Shown here: piece by piece, positions 147 to 62,823 of the stretch
How positions within the stretch are numbered: position 1 is the first letter of the stretch
How the letters are laid out: each line of letters starts with the position of its first letter
Virus record (IMG/VR): IMGVR_UViG_3300029258_003221
Location: 62,001 to 126,000 of that record
DNA: 64,000 bases
DNA from: a virus
Direction: 5' to 3' (one strand)
The notes under the pieces: generated by a model
What the model was told of the DNA's origin: nothing
What the model saw: the letters and a program-made list of their open reading frames with translations, nothing else
Database searches by the model: none
Position numbers and translations under genes: made by a program

Positions 147-1106
147 ATGCAAGGAATTCGTGTAAAGTACATTTTGTATCCGATGTCAATCATAATGAGC
201 ATAGTCATGTTAATTGGCATCAGTATAAGAGTGCAAAGAGCAAACGTTCTGGAAATATCTGTTGATAACTCTAATCCAGAATTGACGATGCCTATCGTTG
301 AAAATGACCCTTATGCACACTTGGCTGCAAATGTAGCTCCTGTTCCCAAAAGAGGAATTGAGTATCGAAAATGGTTGCAGGCTTCTGTTAGAATTCGAGT
401 ATCTTATGCATCAGGTTCAGGCACTATTGTCTATTACGATGATAAAACAGGTTGGGCATACATTCAGACATGTGGCCATCTTTGGGGTGGCATGAAAAGC
501 AACATGTCAGCCGAAGAAGGTAAACGAAGAAAAGAAAAATGTCGTATCAATGTTTTTTATCACAACGAAAAGAAACTTGATCAACCAAAAACATACAGTG
601 CAGATGTGTTGTATTACAATAACAGAGGTGGTCCCGGTGGTGGACACGATTGTGCGTTAATTCGATTTAAGCCCGATTGGAAACCAAATTATTTTCCTAT
701 TGCACCTTCAGATTATCGATATAAACCGGGCTCAATGTTACATTCAACTGGATGCGATGGCGCAACAGAAGCTGCACATTATGATGTGCGTGTCATTGGG
801 TTTTCTAATTCTTCTCAGTTTCCAAGTTTGGTCACTACAGAAAACAGTCCAAGACCCGGACGTTCGGGTGGAGGATTGATGAATGACAGTTATTTTGTGG
901 CTATTTGCTGGGGCACTTCAGATCGTTCTGGTAATGGTAACGGGTTCTTTACACCATTGAGTACAGTACGATATTACAACGAAAAAAATGGATTTGGTTG
1001 GCTTAATGATGTTGGAAGTAGTTTGGCAAGACAAATCCCAATTAAAGACAGAAACAACCCTCAAAGAAGGTATGAACCAGATTACATTCCATTGCCGGGA
1101 CGTTAA
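147..1106 (+). CDS. Membrane-anchored trypsin-like serine protease
   Basis: The 319-residue product starts with a hydrophobic segment (about residues 8-27) that should anchor it in the membrane or act as an uncleaved signal, followed by a trypsin-fold domain. The catalytic triad can be read as His111 (TCGHLW), Asp168 (GHDCALIRF) and Ser240 (GRSGGG), in the order and spacing of S1/DegP-like proteases. No PDZ domain follows. An in-frame GTG at 60 exists, but the ATG at 147 is preferred: GGAG lies seven bases upstream and the hydrophobic segment then sits at the N-terminus. Its 3' end overlaps the convergent acetyltransferase gene by 4 bp. The target is unknown; a role in virion maturation or on host envelope proteins is inference. 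Confidence 0.8.
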   Translation: MQGIRVKYILYPMSIIMSIVMLIGISIRVQRANVLEISVDNSNPELTMPIVENDPYAHLAANVAPVPKRGIEYRKWLQASVRIRVSYASGSGTIVYYDDKTGWAYIQTCGHLWGGMKSNMSAEEGKRRKEKCRINVFYHNEKKLDQPKTYSADVLYYNNRGGPGGGHDCALIRFKPDWKPNYFPIAPSDYRYKPGSMLHSTGCDGATEAAHYDVRVIGFSNSSQFPSLVTTENSPRPGRSGGGLMNDSYFVAICWGTSDRSGNGNGFFTPLSTVRYYNEKNGFGWLNDVGSSLARQIPIKDRNNPQRRYEPDYIPLPGR

Positions 1107-1468
1107 ACGTTGTCTCTCCAAGCTTTACCGAGTTCGCCGATGTGATCAGAATGTACAACAGTATCAAAATCCTGTTGTGCTAGTTGGAGCAATTGTCTCG
1201 CATATCCTTGTCGCCTAACATCTGGCATTGTGTAAACATTGGCAATTTGGGCATTAGTTCCATCTCTTGATACAACCTGAAGGGCACTAACAGCCTGCCC
1301 ATCAACCATGTAAATGTATCGATAAGAACCATGCGGTGAGACATACTTCACCGCACCATTCTTAGTGTCACCGCCCAAATTTTCTTCTGGGCCAATCTGA
1401 CTGGTTTGACCTGCTGGACTCAGAAGGTATTGCAGCATTTCATTTTCTAACCAAAGTTTAAACTTCAT
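1103..1468 (-). CDS. Small GNAT-family acetyltransferase with N-terminal tag
   Basis: A 121-residue protein whose C-terminal half shows the acetyl-CoA-binding signature of GNAT N-acetyltransferases: a beta-strand ending in VYTMPDVRRQGYARQLL, matching the R/Q-x-x-G-x-G/A pyrophosphate loop. The domain is short for the family (usually about 140-160 residues). The N-terminus MKFKLWLENE matches a tag shared with several unrelated proteins at 45-50 kb. Substrate unknown. It converges on the protease gene and sits just downstream of the nuclease gene on the same strand. Confidence 0.7.
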   Translation of the reverse strand: MKFKLWLENEMLQYLLSPAGQTSQIGPEENLGGDTKNGAVKYVSPHGSYRYIYMVDGQAVSALQVVSRDGTNAQIANVYTMPDVRRQGYARQLLQLAQQDFDTVVHSDHIGELGKAWRDNV

Positions 1469-18754: not shown

Positions 18755-20569
18755 TTATTTATTGCACGGAACGATCATCACACATTGGTTTCCATTGTCA
18801 TCTTTTGAAACCATTTCATCCATGCTTATCTTTAAGTCAATTGGACTGCCTCGATAGACCATTTCAACTGTTGGCATTTCTTCAGGGAAGATTAATGGAA
18901 TGCCAATGTCTTCTGGAATAACCAAATCAATTCCTTCAGGGAATCCCTGAACCTCAACTGTTGTAAACACATCAACTTTAATTGGATCTGGTTGTTCAAT
19001 TGGTATCTTTCCTTCAAATTCCAATTTGATTGACTGAGGGGTTTGTATTTCAACTTCAACAGGAATTGATTGCCCTTTATATACGAGTTCGATTTCATCA
19101 GGAATATCCTGTCCCACTAAATCAATTTGAGTCGGTATAGGAGATTCTGGCCCATGAATTTTGATGTCAGTTGGAATATTGGCTTCTGATGTATCAAGTT
19201 TGATGTCTTTGATCATATTCTCCAGACCTTTTGAGTCTATTTCGACTTTTGGCATTTTGTCTGGAGCTACGATTTGAATTTCTTCTGGCAAACCTACCGT
19301 TTCATATTCAATTTTGGATGTTTGTTGAGCTTCAAAAATGTCTGCAAACTCTTCACCAAATTCGCTTGCCTCAAAGTCATTGCTGGAAAACATACGAGGA
19401 GTTTCTACTGGTCGTACCATTGTCATTTGAACTTCCATCTGAGGAATTGACGCTGGATCAATTTGCAGCATAGGAAATTCAATATCATCGACATTCAAAG
19501 AAATTTGCGATTCCGGTGGAATAATCACAATCGTTGGTGGGATCGGTGGATCAATCACAATTGTTGGTGGAATTGGTGGATCAACTACAATAATAGAAGG
19601 AATTCCAGTAACAATAATCTGACTTGGGATATCTCCGGGAATGTCAGTGGTGATTTGATCTGGAATATTGATGTCTCCGATAGAGATGTTTACCCCTTCT
19701 GTTACATCAGCACAAGGCAATACAATTGGTGGAATTTGAATTTCTGGCTCAGGCACATCACATGGAACAAAAGTGAAATCTGGAACAAGGACAGGGTCTG
19801 GAAATGGAACTTCAAATTCATCATCAATAGGAGGTGGCGGTTCTGCTGGATTGTCTCTTTCAATTGGTGTTTGAATGATCTGACACTTGTCATTTGAGAC
19901 TGTTACCACTGGATCAATAGTGGCATTGATGGCATAAGTGTGCGTTCCAGATAATTCTGTTGTTGTAAATTCTCCATCGCCAAAATCGAGTCTAAAAGAC
20001 GTTGAAAGAGTTGTTGCACTGATTTCAACAATGTATGTCGCTAAAACACCTGCTTCATTGTCAATTTCAGTTGTGTTGAATGTGAAGTTGACATCTGGAC
20101 AGGAAAAGTCATCAAATATGATTGCCAGTTCTTCAAGGTTTCTAATCCGCCAATCAAGTGTTCTTTGTCGTTCATCAAAATTGATTCCTGTAAAATCCTC
20201 CATTTTCAGGATGGAGTCTACCAACTGATTGTGATGTTCAGCTACAACATAACTTCTAACCCAAGTTCCTTTCCTGTTCCATTTAGATGGACTGCCGCCT
20301 AATTCTCTGGCACAATCTTTGAGCTTATAGACCTTTCCATCAGAGTTCTTTTCAACTGAATCGTAATAAAACAATTCTCCATTGATGTTGCCAAAGCCAT
20401 TATCGGCCCAAATTTCAGGCTTGTCTGATTTGACAGGTATAATTTCAATTTCCTGAGACCATGCCGGATTTTCTACGCATATCTTTGTCTCTGTAGTGTT
20501 GTAGACAAGATACAAAGTTGAATCATCGTCAATTGCTTTTGGATATAATGGTACAGGAGGAAAAGCCAT
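18755..20569 (-). CDS. Tail appendage protein with PKD domain and fibrous proline-rich C-terminus
   Basis: 604 residues. The N-terminal domain (YPKAIDDDSTLYLVYN, then VVAEHHNQLVDSILKMEDF about residue 110-130) is shared with the two genes upstream. A PKD-like beta-sandwich follows (FRLDFGDGEFTTTELSGTHTY). The last 350 residues are made of short beta/proline repeats (PPIPPTIVID, IPDEIELV, IPVEVEI) expected to form an extended fibre. It starts one base after the TGA of the upstream gene, indicating coupled translation. A likely role is host attachment as a tail fibre or baseplate appendage; an upstream in-frame GTG was not chosen. Confidence 0.65.
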   Translation of the reverse strand: MAFPPVPLYPKAIDDDSTLYLVYNTTETKICVENPAWSQEIEIIPVKSDKPEIWADNGFGNINGELFYYDSVEKNSDGKVYKLKDCARELGGSPSKWNRKGTWVRSYVVAEHHNQLVDSILKMEDFTGINFDERQRTLDWRIRNLEELAIIFDDFSCPDVNFTFNTTEIDNEAGVLATYIVEISATTLSTSFRLDFGDGEFTTTELSGTHTYAINATIDPVVTVSNDKCQIIQTPIERDNPAEPPPPIDDEFEVPFPDPVLVPDFTFVPCDVPEPEIQIPPIVLPCADVTEGVNISIGDINIPDQITTDIPGDIPSQIIVTGIPSIIVVDPPIPPTIVIDPPIPPTIVIIPPESQISLNVDDIEFPMLQIDPASIPQMEVQMTMVRPVETPRMFSSNDFEASEFGEEFADIFEAQQTSKIEYETVGLPEEIQIVAPDKMPKVEIDSKGLENMIKDIKLDTSEANIPTDIKIHGPESPIPTQIDLVGQDIPDEIELVYKGQSIPVEVEIQTPQSIKLEFEGKIPIEQPDPIKVDVFTTVEVQGFPEGIDLVIPEDIGIPLIFPEEMPTVEMVYRGSPIDLKISMDEMVSKDDNGNQCVMIVPCNK

Positions 20570-42854: not shown

Positions 42855-43361
42855 TTATGATTTGCTATGAACAAGTGAGCTGTAATCAGTCCCTGTTGTT
42901 CTCACCAGAACATTACCAGCGTGCTCAGGATCACCTTCAACAGTTGCTTTTCTTTCGTCTCGTTCAGCATCAATACTTTTCTCAAAGAATTTTTTGACTT
43001 CCTTGCCAACCATTTCTATGACTCTTTCACCAGCTTTTTTCTGATCTACATTTTCATCGCTGAGAAGGTCATGAAACATTTCTTCGACATTTAAAGGATA
43101 TGCTGTGCCATAAGGGTGGGTTTGGCTTTCTTTCTGAATACGAAAGGCGAGACGATCTCCAACTCTATATATGCGGATGCCGTCAAAACTCGCTCCTCCC
43201 ATTGGGTTAAGACAAAAAATGTAAGGATCATCTTTTTCATCTGTTTCAAGATGACTCTCTACTTTCATTCCATTGCGTTCAAAAAGTTTCTTCAACAAAC
43301 CTAGTTGTTTCAAAGTATCTCTTTGTTTCTTGTCTATGAAATCTCCAAATGTTTTACGCAT
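42855..43361 (-). CDS. Hypothetical structural-region protein, 168 aa
   Basis: A charged helical protein with MRKTFGDFIDKKQ at the N-terminus, close to the tag shared by the 45-50 kb proteins but with a one-residue shift. The middle contains DPYIFCLNPMGGASFDGIRIY. Position between structural genes suggests a virion or assembly role. No family recognised. Confidence 0.5.
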   Translation of the reverse strand: MRKTFGDFIDKKQRDTLKQLGLLKKLFERNGMKVESHLETDEKDDPYIFCLNPMGGASFDGIRIYRVGDRLAFRIQKESQTHPYGTAYPLNVEEMFHDLLSDENVDQKKAGERVIEMVGKEVKKFFEKSIDAERDERKATVEGDPEHAGNVLVRTTGTDYSSLVHSKS

Positions 43362-45682: not shown

Positions 45683-47137
45683 ATGAAAAAGTTTCATGAA
45701 TACATTGAACTCAAAGAAGCAACTGAGGAAAAGAAGTCATCTGGACCTGATCCTTTGAATGCAAAAATAACACTTGGTGATGGCAATGACTATGAGCCAT
45801 TTACAGTAAGTGATGATCCAAATAGTGAAAACTACGGAAAAAACAGAGGTCTTGCCCCAATTATTCGTGCTTTCAAAAAGGGCGGAAACTGGGGTTGGAG
45901 CAAGGATGACAAAACTGGAGAAGACAAACCAGTTAAAATCAGCGGTAAGAAGCTTTACCTGACAGGCGGTGCTGTTCGTGACCACCTTGCAGGCAAGACT
46001 CCCAGAAACATAGAACTCGCCACTAACGCATCTCCTGACGAGGTCTATCATATTCTGAAACAAAACAACTTCACGTTCTCAGATGGTGAAACTAAAGGCA
46101 AGAAAACAAACCAGTTCTCTGTAAAGTCAAAAGATCCAAATGGAAGACCATTTGCATTTGAAATTAATGTTGGTGATGACACATATGAACTGGAAATCTT
46201 CACCAAAACTCCAAAAGGAAGCGAAGAGCCAGAACCCGGCACACAATCGGATGATGCCGCAGGTCGTGATTTCACCATGAATGCTATGTCGATTCTTCTG
46301 TCAACTGACAATGGTGACAACAAAGAACTTCATGATTTCTATGGTGGTATGCACCATTTAGCCAATGGTAAAGTTCAAACGATTGGTGATATGGAAACCA
46401 GTTTTTCTGATGATCCAAAGCGAATGCTGAGATTCGGTAGAATGGTTTCTGGATATGGCGATCCAGCGAAAATTACTGATGATGAAAAAGCAACTGTTCA
46501 AAAACTTGCTTCTTTGATTTCAAAACTTGATCCAAATGATGTTATGGATGATTTTGATAAAGGCATGAAAAAAGATGATTGTGATCCTCGTAAACACCTT
46601 CAGATTTTTGGTGACCTTGGACTTTTAGGTGCAATTTTCCCGGATATGTCCGTAGATGAATCTTTCCCCAAAGAACTCACAGAACTTGGTGACAGAAACA
46701 TGGCTCTTGCTTGGATGTTGCGACACAACCACCCAGCAAGACTTAATGAAATTGGACTCGGTCCAGATGATGAAAAGATTGCTTTCTTGGTTCGCTCTTT
46801 GAATCTTGGGTTGGGACTTGATGAACATATGCTCGATCAGGCAACCACAAGCTTCACTCGATCAGGTGTGTCAGCCAGAAAATTAAAGAAATGGCTGACT
46901 GTTATGGGCAAAGTTGATGAAGGAACAGTCGATGCATTTTTGAAGCATGCTACTTCACCACGAGTCAAAGTTTATGTAATGAAGGATGATGGCTCAGAGG
47001 GTGTTCGAGAAGAGTTTGAAGATCTGTTTGATCCATTCACGGGACAACCGACTAACCATCAAATGCTTGAAAACCGCAAACGTGAAATGGAGTACAAGAA
47101 CTATCTGAAACACGTTGAGTTCTGTAAACCTGCTTAG
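45683..47137 (+). CDS. Poly(A)-polymerase/CCA-adding enzyme-like protein with altered active site
   Basis: 484 residues of the tRNA nucleotidyltransferase/poly(A) polymerase type: LTGGAVRDHLAGKTPRNIEL near residues 93-112, AAGRDFTMNAMSILL, DFYGG, and FSDDPKRMLRFGRMVSG. The metal-binding D-x-D that normally follows the P-x position reads N-x-E here (Asn109, Glu111), so catalysis may be lost or changed. The start at 45683 is chosen because GGAG lies six bases upstream and it exposes MKKFHEYIEL, a match to the shared N-terminal tag. It heads the plus-strand group of tagged proteins. Confidence 0.75.
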   Translation: MKKFHEYIELKEATEEKKSSGPDPLNAKITLGDGNDYEPFTVSDDPNSENYGKNRGLAPIIRAFKKGGNWGWSKDDKTGEDKPVKISGKKLYLTGGAVRDHLAGKTPRNIELATNASPDEVYHILKQNNFTFSDGETKGKKTNQFSVKSKDPNGRPFAFEINVGDDTYELEIFTKTPKGSEEPEPGTQSDDAAGRDFTMNAMSILLSTDNGDNKELHDFYGGMHHLANGKVQTIGDMETSFSDDPKRMLRFGRMVSGYGDPAKITDDEKATVQKLASLISKLDPNDVMDDFDKGMKKDDCDPRKHLQIFGDLGLLGAIFPDMSVDESFPKELTELGDRNMALAWMLRHNHPARLNEIGLGPDDEKIAFLVRSLNLGLGLDEHMLDQATTSFTRSGVSARKLKKWLTVMGKVDEGTVDAFLKHATSPRVKVYVMKDDGSEGVREEFEDLFDPFTGQPTNHQMLENRKREMEYKNYLKHVEFCKPA

Positions 47138-47145
47138 GAGAATTG

Positions 47146-47445
47146 ATGAAAACATTTGAACAATGGTTTGAATCAAAACAACGACAATATGAAAGCAAGC
47201 CTTTTCAAAACTTGCGACATTTTTATGGCTTCATGGAAAAATTCTTTCCTGATCTTGATGCAAAAAGCATTGATTTTCATAGGAATCTGCCTGATTTAGA
47301 ACACATGCACGGAGTGTTGAATGGTCCCTTTGGTAGAAAGTGGATCAATTCTGCTCGAAATAAACTGTTTGGAATGGGAGCACGACAGAAAGTAACAGGT
47401 GCCAATGTAGGAAACATAGAATTAGGGCCGAAAGTAATACGATAA
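47146..47445 (+). CDS. Tagged hypothetical protein, 99 aa
   Basis: Starts MKTFEQWFESK, one of the clearest copies of the shared tag. The remainder is basic and Gly-rich, with ENFRRF-like aromatic helices (FYGFMEKFFPDLDAKSIDF) and a C-terminal GANVGNIELGPKV. AGGAG precedes the ATG at 47146. No function recognised; a packaged protein is suggested by the tag. Confidence 0.55.
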   Translation: MKTFEQWFESKQRQYESKPFQNLRHFYGFMEKFFPDLDAKSIDFHRNLPDLEHMHGVLNGPFGRKWINSARNKLFGMGARQKVTGANVGNIELGPKVIR

Positions 47446-47457
47446 AAATCTCAGTCT

Positions 47458-47940
47458 ATGAATTTTAAGAAATGGATAGAATCTGTTTGGTATCACGGCA
47501 CGCAGAGTGGAAATGAAATTCGCCAGTCTGGTCAAATTGATATTTCAACTTCTGGTGGCGGGCAACGTGGTTTAAAAGGCGTTTGGCTCACAAGAGATCC
47601 ATCTTACGCTAATCTTTACGCCAAAGCATCAAGAGAAAATCCCAGACAACCTGAAATTTTACAAGTTGAAGTTCCCGACAACCTCAACATTGCCGATTTT
47701 TATGCTATTCAAAATTCTCTTGGCATAAATGATGCAGAAAGAGCTATGTGGAAATTTGTCGGGTTTGATGTTGATGATTTTGCATCCATGCAACCTGTGC
47801 GTGATATGCAGCCATTTGCTATGACTAAATTACTTCAACAACAAGGGTATGATGGGGCTTTAATTCCAAATACCATACAAAAAGGCGGGGAACCTGAATT
47901 GGTTATTTTTAACCCCGGAAATGTTCGATTGATTGCATAA
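47458..47940 (+). CDS. ADP-ribosyltransferase-like protein with N-terminal tag
   Basis: 160 residues. After the tag (MNFKKWIES) come WYHGTQSGNEI, GVWLTRDPSYANLYA and ELVIFNPGNVRLI, the three motif blocks of ART-fold proteins (H/Y-x-x-[ST], the aromatic/STS-like strand and the catalytic Glu/Gln turn). ART proteins transfer ADP-ribose from NAD+ to a protein or nucleic acid. T4 Alt is an ADP-ribosyltransferase carried in the head and injected, which the tag here recalls. The catalytic Glu in the last block is Glu or Gln as read. Target unknown. Confidence 0.65.
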   Translation: MNFKKWIESVWYHGTQSGNEIRQSGQIDISTSGGGQRGLKGVWLTRDPSYANLYAKASRENPRQPEILQVEVPDNLNIADFYAIQNSLGINDAERAMWKFVGFDVDDFASMQPVRDMQPFAMTKLLQQQGYDGALIPNTIQKGGEPELVIFNPGNVRLIA

Positions 47941-47944
47941 AAAA

Positions 47945-47972
47945 AACCTCGATAAGAAAACTTATCGAGGTT
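47945..47972 (-). terminator. Intrinsic terminator of the exported-protein gene
   Basis: A perfect 12-bp stem (AACCTCGATAAG and its complement) with an AAAA loop. The T run follows only when read on the minus strand, so it ends transcription of the 47993-48418 gene; the plus-strand side lacks a T run. Confidence 0.9.
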
Positions 47973-47992
47973 ACGATTCTTGCCACAAAAGC

Positions 47993-48418
47993 TTAGCGGA
48001 CAGGTGCTGGAGCTTCGTTGATGTTTGCTTCGGCTGGTTCACTTGCCGGTGCTGGTGCCACTTTCACTGCATTAACAGATTCACTGACTGGTCCAGCAAC
48101 AGATTCTCTGACTGGAGCAGGGGCAGATTCTCTAACTACAGTGTTAGATTTCACAGTTTCTGTTGATCCCGCTGGTGGAAAACAAATTCCATTCTTGCAG
48201 TTCGGTCGAACAACAGGTTTTGACTGGATGACACGTGAGCTTATCACACGTGGCTGGTGATAAATGATTCTGGATGGCTGACACCTGTAATAGGTGCGAC
48301 AGCTATTGTATGTGTAGCAACTGTTAGATCGATAACAGGAGCTAGGACAATTTCCAGCTTCAGCGAACGAAGGCAGCGCAAACAACATCGCTGCCGCCAT
48401 GGTAATTCCAAATTTCAT
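47993..48418 (-). CDS. Secreted Cys/Pro/Ala-rich protein with Sec signal, 141 aa
   Basis: The first 20 residues (MKFGITMAAAMLFALPSFAE) form a Sec signal peptide with a probable Ala-x-Ala cleavage site just after. The mature protein begins with Cys-spaced CPSSCYRSNSCYTYNSC, then is rich in Ser, Arg, Val and Ala-Pro. GGAGG is six bases before the ATG; a longer in-frame start was rejected. It is a lone, self-contained gene (own terminator, a 12-base sequence shared with the 55.9-kb gene about 45 bases upstream). It is probably exported to the periplasm or surface; role unknown. Confidence 0.65.
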   Translation of the reverse strand: MKFGITMAAAMLFALPSFAEAGNCPSSCYRSNSCYTYNSCRTYYRCQPSRIIYHQPRVISSRVIQSKPVVRPNCKNGICFPPAGSTETVKSNTVVRESAPAPVRESVAGPVSESVNAVKVAPAPASEPAEANINEAPAPVR

Positions 48419-48616
48419 GTTTTCCTCCGTGGGAGTTTTTGACAAAGAGCCTTTTGCTCTCAACTGTAGTTAGTGGTTCTTAAACAAGAAACCACACGTC
48501 AGTTCAATTTAGTTTGTCCTTTGAGGCACGACAACCCTTCAGCATTGAAATTTTTGATTTATCTGGTAACTTACTCTAAAGAAGATGTGTCTTTAAAAGA
48601 CAATCAGGAGAACACA

Positions 48617-49258
48617 ATGCAAAAATTGCAAATTTTCGATTTTGACGGCACCCTTGTCTTCACGCCTACCGATAACGCAAAAACTCGGAAATTGTTTGAA
48701 GATGAAACTGGCATTCCATGGGTAATTGACAAAAAACTTGCCAGAAAGCTTACAAATCGACTGGGAAGACCCATCACAATGCGTAAGGGATGGTTTGGGC
48801 GCAAAGAAACCCTTGAACCACCACTTGTTCCCAATCCAACACCAGATGAAATGATCAATCGAAGTGTTTGTGATCTTTTTCTACAGTCAAAACAAGACGA
48901 AAATGCTCTAACTGTCATGATGACTGGTCGTCATGAAGGTTTGCGATCTCACGTTCTTCGTATTTTGAATGATGTTGGATTGGTTGACGTAAAATATGAA
49001 GATGGCAAAGCAATTCAAACTGATTCCGATGTCGTTTGCTATTTAAATGGCAATAATGGTCCAGCTCCAGAGATCGTTGGACAAAAGCCGCATGAAACAC
49101 ATCCATGGAAAATCTGGATTCTCGAACAGCTCATTCATGTTGGAAATTATGATTTGATTGAGATTTGGGAAGATCGTAAGAAGTATATCAAACCATTTGA
49201 AGAATTTGGTGAAAGTATTGAAGAGGACTTTGTCGTTCACTTTGTGGAGGGAAATTGA
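48617..49258 (+). CDS. HAD-superfamily phosphatase-like protein
   Basis: 213 residues with the HAD motif I FDFDGTLV (Asp8, Asp10), motif II region MMTGRHEGLR and a motif IV-like IWEDRKKYI. The pattern, including the C-terminal WKIWILEQL, resembles a group of HAD proteins linked to nucleic acid repair in phages, as I recall. Start at 48617 follows AGGAG; upstream in-frame starts are inside a stretch without gene-like sequence. It overlaps the next gene by an ATTGA junction. Confidence 0.7.
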   Translation: MQKLQIFDFDGTLVFTPTDNAKTRKLFEDETGIPWVIDKKLARKLTNRLGRPITMRKGWFGRKETLEPPLVPNPTPDEMINRSVCDLFLQSKQDENALTVMMTGRHEGLRSHVLRILNDVGLVDVKYEDGKAIQTDSDVVCYLNGNNGPAPEIVGQKPHETHPWKIWILEQLIHVGNYDLIEIWEDRKKYIKPFEEFGESIEEDFVVHFVEGN

Positions 49259-49566
49259 GAAACGATTGGTTAAAACGAAGTTGGAAATTACATTGTTGGA
49301 CAGATAGACTTGTTTTACACATTTGCAAAGGTCCATATAGATATTCAGTGCCTGTTGATTCATTGCGGCATCTTAGAAATCAATTTGGCCTTAGTCCTAT
49401 AATTGAACTTGCATATACTGCAAAAACACAACTTATTGGAGGTTCATTTGGGCTTCCTTCAAGGGCAAGTGTTTCAAAAGAAGAATTTCAAAAGATCATT
49501 AAAGTCATTCATTCATTTAATGAAACGGTTGATGGGAAAATTATTCCCTGTCCACAATGGCCTTAA
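49255..49566 (+). CDS. Hypothetical protein with TTG start, 103 aa
   Basis: Starts with TTG, overlapping the preceding stop; GGAGGG lies four bases upstream, which supports this weak-initiator start. The product is basic with WxxLxxxW-like aromatic residues (NDWLKRSWKLHCWTD). No family recognised. Ends facing the kinase gene, overlapping its stop by 4 bp. Confidence 0.5.
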   Translation: MRNDWLKRSWKLHCWTDRLVLHICKGPYRYSVPVDSLRHLRNQFGLSPIIELAYTAKTQLIGGSFGLPSRASVSKEEFQKIIKVIHSFNETVDGKIIPCPQWP

Positions 49567-50084
49567 TCATCCCATGGCATTTTCGAACGCCGGATTTGAT
49601 CTGGCGTTATATCACTTTGCCAACGCTGAAACATATTTTGAATTGCATCTTTTGGTACGCCATGTTTATTGCGTTGTGCTAAAACTTCAGCAGCCGAATC
49701 TAAGGCCGATTGATCCTTTCTGCTCATTGCATCTTTGATGTTGTTCCAAATATCACTTTGTGGTTCTTGGATTCTAATATCATAGTCAAATTTGTCAGCA
49801 AGTAAAACATAGGGTTTTGCTTCCCAAGCTTCGATATTTGTATTGTCTACAATAATTGGAGAAACGCTTTTCTTCATAGCTTCTGCGACACGATTCACAT
49901 TCCATTGATGAGCTTCAGGTAATTTTTCTGGATCAAAGTTATATTCTTTTCCAAAAAAATCATCAGTGGAAAAAGATTGCCCACCTAAAGTTTGAGAGAT
50001 CGTTGACTTTCCTGTGCCACTCGGGCCACGAATGATGTAAACGATCTTCTCAACATCTTCTAACCATGTACGGAATGAGTTCAT
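49563..50084 (-). CDS. AAA_33/polynucleotide-kinase-type P-loop protein with tag
   Basis: 173 residues. After the tag (MNSFRTWLED) a Walker A GPSGTGKST binds ATP, and VDNTNIEAWE gives the DNTN motif of the N4BP2/PNK-like kinases. The middle has the substrate lid typical of small 5'-kinases. Its target could be nucleic acid 5' ends or a nucleotide; not shown. It shares a 4-bp overlap with the next minus-strand gene. Confidence 0.7.
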   Translation of the reverse strand: MNSFRTWLEDVEKIVYIIRGPSGTGKSTISQTLGGQSFSTDDFFGKEYNFDPEKLPEAHQWNVNRVAEAMKKSVSPIIVDNTNIEAWEAKPYVLLADKFDYDIRIQEPQSDIWNNIKDAMSRKDQSALDSAAEVLAQRNKHGVPKDAIQNMFQRWQSDITPDQIRRSKMPWDD

Positions 50085-50347
50085 TTGCCCACAGGTGCTA
50101 CAGGTTTACAGTTTTTCTTCGATGCTGTGACTTTGAATGGCCAGACAGTTCCCATATGACCGCAAGGATCTTTGTAGTCATCGCTCATATCCTTACGGAC
50201 ATCACGAGCACCCGCAAATTTCTCTTTGTGATTGATCTTTTTCTTTTTGTCACCACAGTCACTTTCATTTACCTTCCAAGCCACTGTGCCATCTTCTGAA
50301 ATGTCAATCAAATCCTTCTCTTCACACCAGTTTACGAAATCTCGCAT
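50081..50347 (-). CDS. Tagged hypothetical protein, 88 aa
   Basis: Starts MRDFVNWCEEKDL, matching the F-x-x-W-x-E tag. The rest is Lys/Asp-rich with DPCGHMGTVWPFKV, where a Cys/His pair could bind metal. AGGAGG precedes the ATG and CACTCTATATAAA lies about 20 bases upstream. No function recognised. Confidence 0.5.
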   Translation of the reverse strand: MRDFVNWCEEKDLIDISEDGTVAWKVNESDCGDKKKKINHKEKFAGARDVRKDMSDDYKDPCGHMGTVWPFKVTASKKNCKPVAPVGK

Positions 50348-54714: not shown

Positions 54715-55018
54715 AAAACAATTCTACGACCCTCATCCGGGACTTCTTGGTTGCATTGAACCTCTCCCTGAAGCCGTTAGACTCAAAGCAGCAGATATGG
54801 ATGGCAATTTCTTCACTGTCGATGAAGCAATTGCCATGATCAAAGAAGTCGCACCTGAAGATTATGAAGTCAAAGCACATGACAGCTTCATATCTCTGAG
54901 TGGTGGTGAATTCATTGATGTGCCAACAAAGCCGCCAATGCAAACAAGATCATTCAATTGGCGTGTTTTGCGATTTCGTGAAGTTGAATCCAAAAATTGT
55001 TCTGGAGATGAAAAATGA
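54707..55018 (+). CDS. Hypothetical protein, 103 aa
   Basis: A soluble acidic protein starting MSKKQFYDPHPGLLG with FFTVDEAIAMIKEVAPEDYE in the middle. It starts inside the previous gene (8-bp overlap) and overlaps the next by 4 bp, so it belongs to a small early operon. No function recognised. Confidence 0.5.
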   Translation: MSKKQFYDPHPGLLGCIEPLPEAVRLKAADMDGNFFTVDEAIAMIKEVAPEDYEVKAHDSFISLSGGEFIDVPTKPPMQTRSFNWRVLRFREVESKNCSGDEK

Positions 55019-55389
55019 AACGTCGAGAGGCATTGAAGATCATAGGTGCCACTGTCGTTGTCAGCAATTTTTTGCCTGAAGTTCAAGGTTCACAAGAAAA
55101 ACCTTTGAGCCCTTTAAGGCCCATAATGATGCATATTGATCGTGACAGGTCATGGAGAATTCATGGTGAATATCATATGGCATCAATTGGACCTAGCCCT
55201 CGATCTGATTGTTTAGAATCTCTCAAAATCATTACCAATGATGGAAGAACCTTTGAGTTTCATACCAAAGATACAGATGGGTTTAGTTTCCGAGAATCAG
55301 TTGATGATGGATTACTGAAGCTCAATTATATTGATACCGGTCATTTCTCTGTCATGATCATTCCAAGATACAGATGGAAGCAACTATGA
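55015..55389 (+). CDS. Tat-signal protein, 124 aa
   Basis: The N-terminus MKRREALKIIGATVVVSNFL has the twin-arginine motif (R-R-x-A-L-K) and a hydrophobic core, so it is expected to be exported folded by the Tat pathway. The mature part is beta-rich (HIDRDRSWRIHGEYHMASIG) with no recognised domain. A similar leader begins the 62185 protein. Confidence 0.65.
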   Translation: MKRREALKIIGATVVVSNFLPEVQGSQEKPLSPLRPIMMHIDRDRSWRIHGEYHMASIGPSPRSDCLESLKIITNDGRTFEFHTKDTDGFSFRESVDDGLLKLNYIDTGHFSVMIIPRYRWKQL

Positions 55390-62184: not shown

Positions 62185-62823
62185 ATGAAACGACGTGATG
62201 CACTCAAAACATTGGGATTTTTTCCTCTGGCTGGAAGCCCTCTAGCGGCCCTCGGCCAAACCTCGTCTATTAACGAAGACCCCAAGCCAAAGTCGATTTG
62301 GGATTATCAGGTCAAACACTTCCTGATCGATGCCCACCATGAATTCCTCTTCATCAAACACAATGACAGCAAAGCCGTTGCCTTCCTTGAAGAAGATACC
62401 GGTGACCTGATTGTGGCTCGAAATCGAGACAAACTCTCTGAATGCAGACCTGAACGATTCTCTCCAAAAGAAGCCAGAATCGTCAAAGAAAATGAGACAA
62501 TGCTCCTGCACCTTGAACAAGGGTCTTATTCTGTCTCAATTGGCCGATCTGAACTCGCCCTCCCAAGAGTTGAATACCGCAAGATCAATGACCAATACTT
62601 CTGGCGGTTGACAATAAACAGAGCAGGAGTGGAATTCGAACCTTGTGAAATCCCAGAGTTTGCACATATCTCCTACAAAGGGCCTTCCTACGGAACCCGT
62701 GAATACAATGAGTGGGGGTTTAATTTCACAAACCACAAAACAACCAGAAATCTTCCCTTCGAACTTCAGGTTTGTCAGGGGCATTTACCACGTGATAAAT
62801 TTTTTCATAATCTACCCATTTAA
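62185..62823 (+). CDS. Tat-signal protein, 212 aa
   Basis: MKRRDALKTLGFFPLAGSPL is a typical Tat leader (R-R-D-A-L-K) with a hydrophobic stretch and an Ala-rich end. The mature part is beta-rich with a Cys and many charged residues; I recognise no domain. Similar leader to the 55015 protein. It follows the three tandem paralogues closely and is likely transcribed with them. Confidence 0.65.
   Translation: MKRRDALKTLGFFPLAGSPLAALGQTSSINEDPKPKSIWDYQVKHFLIDAHHEFLFIKHNDSKAVAFLEEDTGDLIVARNRDKLSECRPERFSPKEARIVKENETMLLHLEQGSYSVSIGRSELALPRVEYRKINDQYFWRLTINRAGVEFEPCEIPEFAHISYKGPSYGTREYNEWGFNFTNHKTTRNLPFELQVCQGHLPRDKFFHNLPI

Follow-up and report, generated by a model that had tools for sequence, protein, structure and literature searches.

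Why should a set of proteins with unrelated bodies, several of them encoded side by side in one phage genome, begin with variants of a single short motif? This question is raised by a 64,000-base stretch (hereafter the window, whose positions are used below unless genome positions are specified) that covers bases 62001-126000 of the 234,631-base T4-related phage record IMGVR_UViG_3300029258_003221. Our data suggest that its N-terminal F-x-x-[WYF]-[LIV]-(x)-E tag is very probably a functional equivalent of the capsid-targeting sequence (CTS) of T4, marking head cargo that is injected with the DNA. Six strong cases all begin M-x(1-2)-F-x-x-[WY]-hydrophobic-E, as the initial annotation had claimed and as is read directly from the sequence, and all start with ATG, several behind a good Shine-Dalgarno sequence. 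On the plus strand, 45683..47137 encodes a 484-residue protein with a nucleotidyltransferase/poly(A)-polymerase head domain (PolyA_pol, E=3e-17) that starts MKKFHEYIE and whose tag runs from M1 to E12 (MKKFHEYIELKE, 45683-45718); it is followed by a 99-residue protein (47146..47445; tag MKTFEQWFES at 47146-47175) and a 160-residue ADP-ribosyltransferase (ART)-like protein (47458..47940; tag MNFKKWIES at 47458-47484). On the minus strand lie a 173-residue P-loop kinase-like protein (49563..50084; AAA_33, 8e-9; tag MNSFRTWLED at 50055-50084), an 88-residue protein (50081..50347; tag MRDFVNWCEE at 50318-50347) and a 121-residue GNAT acetyltransferase-like protein (1103..1468; GNAT, 3e-6; tag MKFKLWLENE at 1439-1468). 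Tags of this kind include MKKFHEYIELKEA, MNSFRTWLED and MKTFEQWFES.

Motifs as short as this, read from genes called by a simple program, could arise by chance or as artefacts of gene calling, and a shared start could also reflect common ancestry of the tagged genes. An 11-position profile was therefore built from 32 non-redundant tags of relatives, this phage and the test-genome loci being left out. At a score of at least 8 it matched 10 of the 391 N-termini in this genome, compared with 2 of 1149 internal methionines (p=4e-5) and a mean of 0.29 matches after shuffling of residues 2-20; at a higher threshold, no internal methionine of the 1149 matched (p=1e-6). Across six genomes of related phages, the largest of 533 kb, 96 of 2540 N-termini but only 7 of 8575 internal methionines scored at least 8 (p~1e-53), and the corresponding counts at a score of at least 10 were 73 and 2. 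The search of the rest of the genome and of relatives that the initial annotation had proposed thus found further copies, and the motif is not equally frequent at random N-termini, since both controls (internal methionines and shuffled N-termini) run 15 to >50 times below real N-termini. All ten tags of this genome lie in its structural half (10 of 173 genes, compared with 0 of 217 elsewhere; p=2.5e-4), and these phages carry 6-34 tagged genes per genome or contig. The bodies differ as had been claimed, with PolyA_pol, ART-PolyVal, AAA_33 kinase and GNAT matches that belong to unrelated Pfam families, and the 47146 and 50081 proteins matched no Pfam family. Chance is ruled out by the two controls and shared ancestry by the unrelatedness of the families, so that this explanation as a whole carries a negligible probability.

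When the profile, which contains no T4 sequences, was run on T4, it matched 4 of 255 genes, namely 61.1 and the three genes ipI, ipII and ipIII, each of which is annotated as encoding an internal virion protein. In phiKZ (215 kb tested), there were no tag matches and no S77 protease match. The internal proteins (IPs) IPI, IPII and IPIII of T4 and other T-even phages (CTS MKTYQEFIAE/A, the slash marking the cut) are alike to the tagged proteins in tag length, aromatic spacing and the positions of the hydrophobic residue and Glu, and they likewise combine one conserved tag with diverse bodies and an S77 protease. Mutagenesis of the IPIII tag assigned capsid targeting to residues 4 and 7 (Y and F) and processing to residues 8 and 10 (I and E), and Asp at residue 10 blocked processing while targeting was kept (PMC9026906). 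Among 156 non-redundant huge-phage tags, the first aromatic stands at residue 4 in 86 and at residue 3 in 42; three residues past it is W, F or Y (99%), followed by L, I or V (85%), and in 92 a Glu comes within the two residues after that. The proposed resemblance in size, aromatic spacing and Glu was thus borne out, the tag spanning about ten residues and its key aromatics standing at residues 4 and 7. With its Asp at residue 10, the 49563 protein (tag MNSFRTWLED) might, by the T4 rule, be targeted but not cut. Unlike in T4, Trp is favoured here at the second aromatic position. The uncharacterised T4 gene 61.1 (18966-19130, minus strand; MKTFKEFIKEDM) scores as tagged, and its product may be a fourth CTS-bearing T4 protein.

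Short aromatic-hydrophobic motifs have many roles, as is generally known, and the tagged cluster of the window adjoins tail and baseplate genes; the tag might accordingly be a docking peptide of another kind, for a sliding clamp, a membrane or tail and baseplate loading, that merely resembles a CTS. We consider this very unlikely, because a profile made from these phages finds ipI, ipII and ipIII in T4 and because the tag is linked to the N-terminus, to a position in the head-gene cassette and to L-x-E sites.

The genome encodes a T4-type head set, with a Gp23-type capsid protein (PF07068, 9e-86), a gp21-type Peptidase_S77 prohead protease (PF03420, 1.8e-26) and a T4-type portal and terminase, and the S77 protease is present in 12 of 12 relatives. 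In the clade, the capsid protein has hydrophobic-N-E at the expected end of its propeptide in nearly all of 78 aligned sequences. A set of genes picked by position rather than by motif was then informative: wherever the upstream sequence reached far enough (45 of 45 loci), the aromatic pair of the tag appears in a gene of the head cassette that lies upstream of the protease, roughly 4 kb ahead of the capsid gene (two of the 45 need a corrected gene start). The bodies of these head-cassette genes fall into many unlinked BLAST clusters, and the tag is nonetheless kept. Moreover, [LIVM]-x-E, usually in the form LKE or LRE, falls within residues 6-20 in 30 of 36 non-redundant members, compared with 513 of 2352 other genes (22%) and 10.5 expected on shuffling. 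The member in this genome (genome 43887-44240, plus strand; a weaker form of the tag) lies between protease and portal, the interval occupied by gp67 and gp68 in T4. The isolated and more distantly related Stenotrophomonas phage RAS14 has a 74-residue gene with a related start (MSKSFREHLAEN) between portal and protease. The portal gene of the present phage (genome 46804-49329, minus strand; L004:8804-11329) is interrupted by an intein (PF14890, 5e-15).

A tagged gene in the gp67/gp68 position raises the alternative that the tag is an assembly-only motif for docking to the prohead core, with tagged proteins that build or size the head, are then degraded or expelled, and are seldom injected; in T4, IPIII likewise contributes to the assembly of the head (PMC9026906). 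However, many tagged bodies are compact enzymes that have kept their catalytic motifs, such as HxT...HxT in the Acb1-like group described below, unlike scaffolds, and the cargo sets vary from phage to phage. An assembly-only role is therefore an improbable account of the tag.

Putative cleavage sites occur in a large part of the tags. The T4 gp21 protease cuts at L/I-x-E (PMC9026906), and [LIVM]xE occurs between four and fifteen residues past the first aromatic in 96 of the 156 tags, compared with 47.5 expected on shuffling; in 46 tags, Glu follows the aromatic-hydrophobic pair directly. Within the window, only the 45683 protein has a clear canonical L-x-E right behind its tag (LKE/A), and the 50081 protein has I-S-E further downstream.

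Several points weigh against the interpretation of the tag as a CTS. The other strong cases of the window have W-[LIF]-E and, like some tagged genes elsewhere, lack the canonical [LI]xE, so that cutting of W-[LIF]-E tags by the prohead protease is uncertain. T4 gp67 and gp68 themselves lack the tag, and the tagged gene in their position therefore differs from T4. No recognisable late-promoter signature was found, the T4-type late promoter TATAAATA having only two copies genome-wide, for which reason it was dropped as independent evidence of late expression. In addition, the gene calls came from a simple home-made program, and the profile seeds were chosen with a pattern like that of the initial annotation and come from phages related to the test genomes. 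The test is therefore out-of-sample, but its counts are not fully independent.

The organization of the tagged proteins suggests a detachable module. Family matches start right behind the tag, at residue 10 (the ART-like 47458 protein), 16 (the AAA_33 kinase 49563 and an Arr-type ART), 21 (DUF3293) or 27-28 (a C39 peptidase and a second kinase). The Acb1-like family is a natural experiment in this respect: three members are tagged, and in the alignment untagged members start exactly at the tag junction, which on sequence grounds marks the tag as modular. The tagged Acb1-like protein of this phage (genome 23220-23768, plus strand, outside the window) matches PF23474 above cut-off and has both HxT motifs and a 2H fold; in its AlphaFold2 model, residues 1-19, which include a short helix, have a predicted local distance difference test score (pLDDT) below 50, and the body is well predicted. 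An activity like that of Acb1, which counters the cyclic-oligonucleotide-based antiphage signalling system (CBASS), is likely but not certain for this protein, judging from motifs and model. The best fold matches include Acb1, Usb1 and LigT, all 2H phosphoesterases, and because Usb1 and LigT match as well, the assignment of the Acb1 substrate is not firm. Its untagged Acb1-like 2H phosphoesterase paralogue, one of the members that start at the junction, lies between terminase and portal (genome 50163-50702, minus strand).

Across 121 tagged proteins, Pfam matches comprised FMN reductases, Acb1/2H phosphoesterases, PolyA_pol, UvrD-type helicases, C39 peptidases, HAD phosphatases, AAA_33 kinases, ARTs, GNATs and DUF3293/S-AdoMet-lyase-like proteins; when tagged proteins were scanned with PADLOC, most matches were to helicases and had no diagnostic value. 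Several of these cargo types would fit early counter-defence or take-over of the host. DUF3293 proteins with weak S-adenosylmethionine (SAM)-lyase similarity occur in this phage (genome 28484-28765, minus strand) and in relative G002 (459469-459861, plus strand), the tag being weak in one and clear in the other, and are possibly packaged anti-restriction enzymes. In T4, IPI, IPII and IPIII each inhibit a different GmrSD restriction enzyme (PMC12373910). Relative G005 has five tandem paralogues of about 570 residues (169016-177625; L168, L169) with tag-like but diverging N-termini, and the one scanned had no Pfam match.

Thus, the CTS reading put forward by the initial annotation is supported by the recovery of ipI, ipII and ipIII, by the head machinery, by agreement with T4 mutagenesis, by the kept head-cassette tag and by modular enzymes. 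We propose a model whereby the tag of about ten residues acts as a zip code that would tie nascent cargo to the prohead core, unrelated tagged proteins would be trapped as the gp23-type shell closes, and the Peptidase_S77 prohead protease would then, in many cases, cut the tag at [L/I/V]-x-E. The released cargo would remain with the DNA and enter the host on infection, and many of the tagged bodies are enzymes plausibly active in its first minutes, with the Acb1-like cyclic-nucleotide phosphodiesterase, ARTs, kinase, nucleotidyltransferase and GNAT protein as candidates. We infer core binding, cleavage, presence in the virion, injection and an anti-defence role of the tagged proteins from their sequences. 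A wider proposal, to which we attach moderate confidence, is that the CTS has turned into a general loading code among large and huge T4-related phages of a widespread clade. Each phage would pack a different set of tagged proteins, up to about 30 in number, and inject them before any of its genes is expressed, as a ready-made anti-defence and take-over kit that would include Acb1-like, SAM-lyase/DUF3293-like, ART, kinase and peptidase enzymes.

The remaining genes concern the extent of the set in this phage. Of two weaker forms that had been noted, the 42855 protein (42855..43361, minus strand; 168 residues, a conserved protein of unknown fold with homologues in three relatives; tag MRKTFGDFIDKK at 43326-43361) stands with a profile score of 12.4, whereas the 4059 protein (MLSLSEYRQKTLSE; score -6.2) was rejected by the profile, as was the protein at genome 20037 (MTDWKKW). 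Outside the window, further tagged proteins are encoded near portal and terminase (genome 45630-45887 and 50738-51448, both minus strand). Untagged genes also occur in the window cluster (45226, 48617 and 49255); the 48617-49258 product (plus strand) is HAD-like by eye, and HAD-like proteins of relatives (G002 346338, G005 177713) are tagged. The match of the 47458 protein to ART-PolyVal (PF18760; 1e-6, 29.7 bits) is just below the curated cut-off of 31.2, its single-sequence AlphaFold2 model (pLDDT 35) is too low to inform on an ART fold, and the ART had no match in annotated phages. No close nucleotide relative of the phage was matched among annotated phages. In the major capsid protein it shares 80-94% identity with many IMG/VR contigs and 76% with the 595-kb uncultured phage LR756511; one further IMG/VR contig has a 100% identical capsid protein and looks like the same phage population. 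In IMG/VR, the only relatives of 45683, 47146, 47458 and 49563 were copies from one contig of apparently that population, and these putative cargo genes are, at that search sensitivity, private to it. Tat-like (twin-arginine translocation-like) RRxxLK signal sequences, unusual for a phage, start the proteins at 55015-55389 (plus strand; MKRREALKIIGATVVVS), 62185-62823 (plus strand; MKRRDALKTLGFFPLAG) and genome 30727-30840 (minus strand; MKVDRRSVLKMIGAIPIVG).

One tag on many bodies, delivered from the head, is already known from T-even biology, and a review of T4 (PMC9026906) suggested that the CTS may be general; we therefore place the system with the internal proteins of T4, as an enlarged variant. 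It differs from the T4 system in scale, with 6-34 tagged genes compared with three IPs and 61.1 in the T4 scan, in the recognisable enzymes among its cargo, and in a tag on the head-cassette gene, unlike gp67 and gp68. T4 Alt is a head-delivered ART that is not among the profile matches, whereas tagged ART-like proteins occur here and in relatives, and here small ART-like domains stand directly behind the tag. The large phages phiKZ and SPN3US also pack and eject many proteins that their prohead protease cuts after Glu (PMC5694885, PMC13282480); in contrast to the present tag, they use mostly long propeptides and A/S-x-E sites, and phiKZ differs further in its lack of S77 and tag matches. The Acb1 anti-CBASS phosphodiesterase shares PF23474, both HxT motifs and the fold with the Acb1-like protein, to which the packaging tag is an addition that would imply delivery before gene expression. 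Among the open-licence papers searched, we found no report of this tag across T4-related huge phages, of tens of cargo genes per genome, of recognisable enzymes as cargo or of the tag on a head-cassette gene.

Little is known of which proteins huge phages inject with their DNA, and most of their genes lack an annotation. If the tag marks head cargo, the injected effectors of many uncultivated phages could be listed directly and in testable form, counter-defence enzymes, Acb1-like ones among them, would be placed in the virion, and a mechanism described mainly for T-even phages would extend to genomes of >500 kb. Should the tag prove to be a general loading code, it alone would predict the injected proteome of a phage from its genome.

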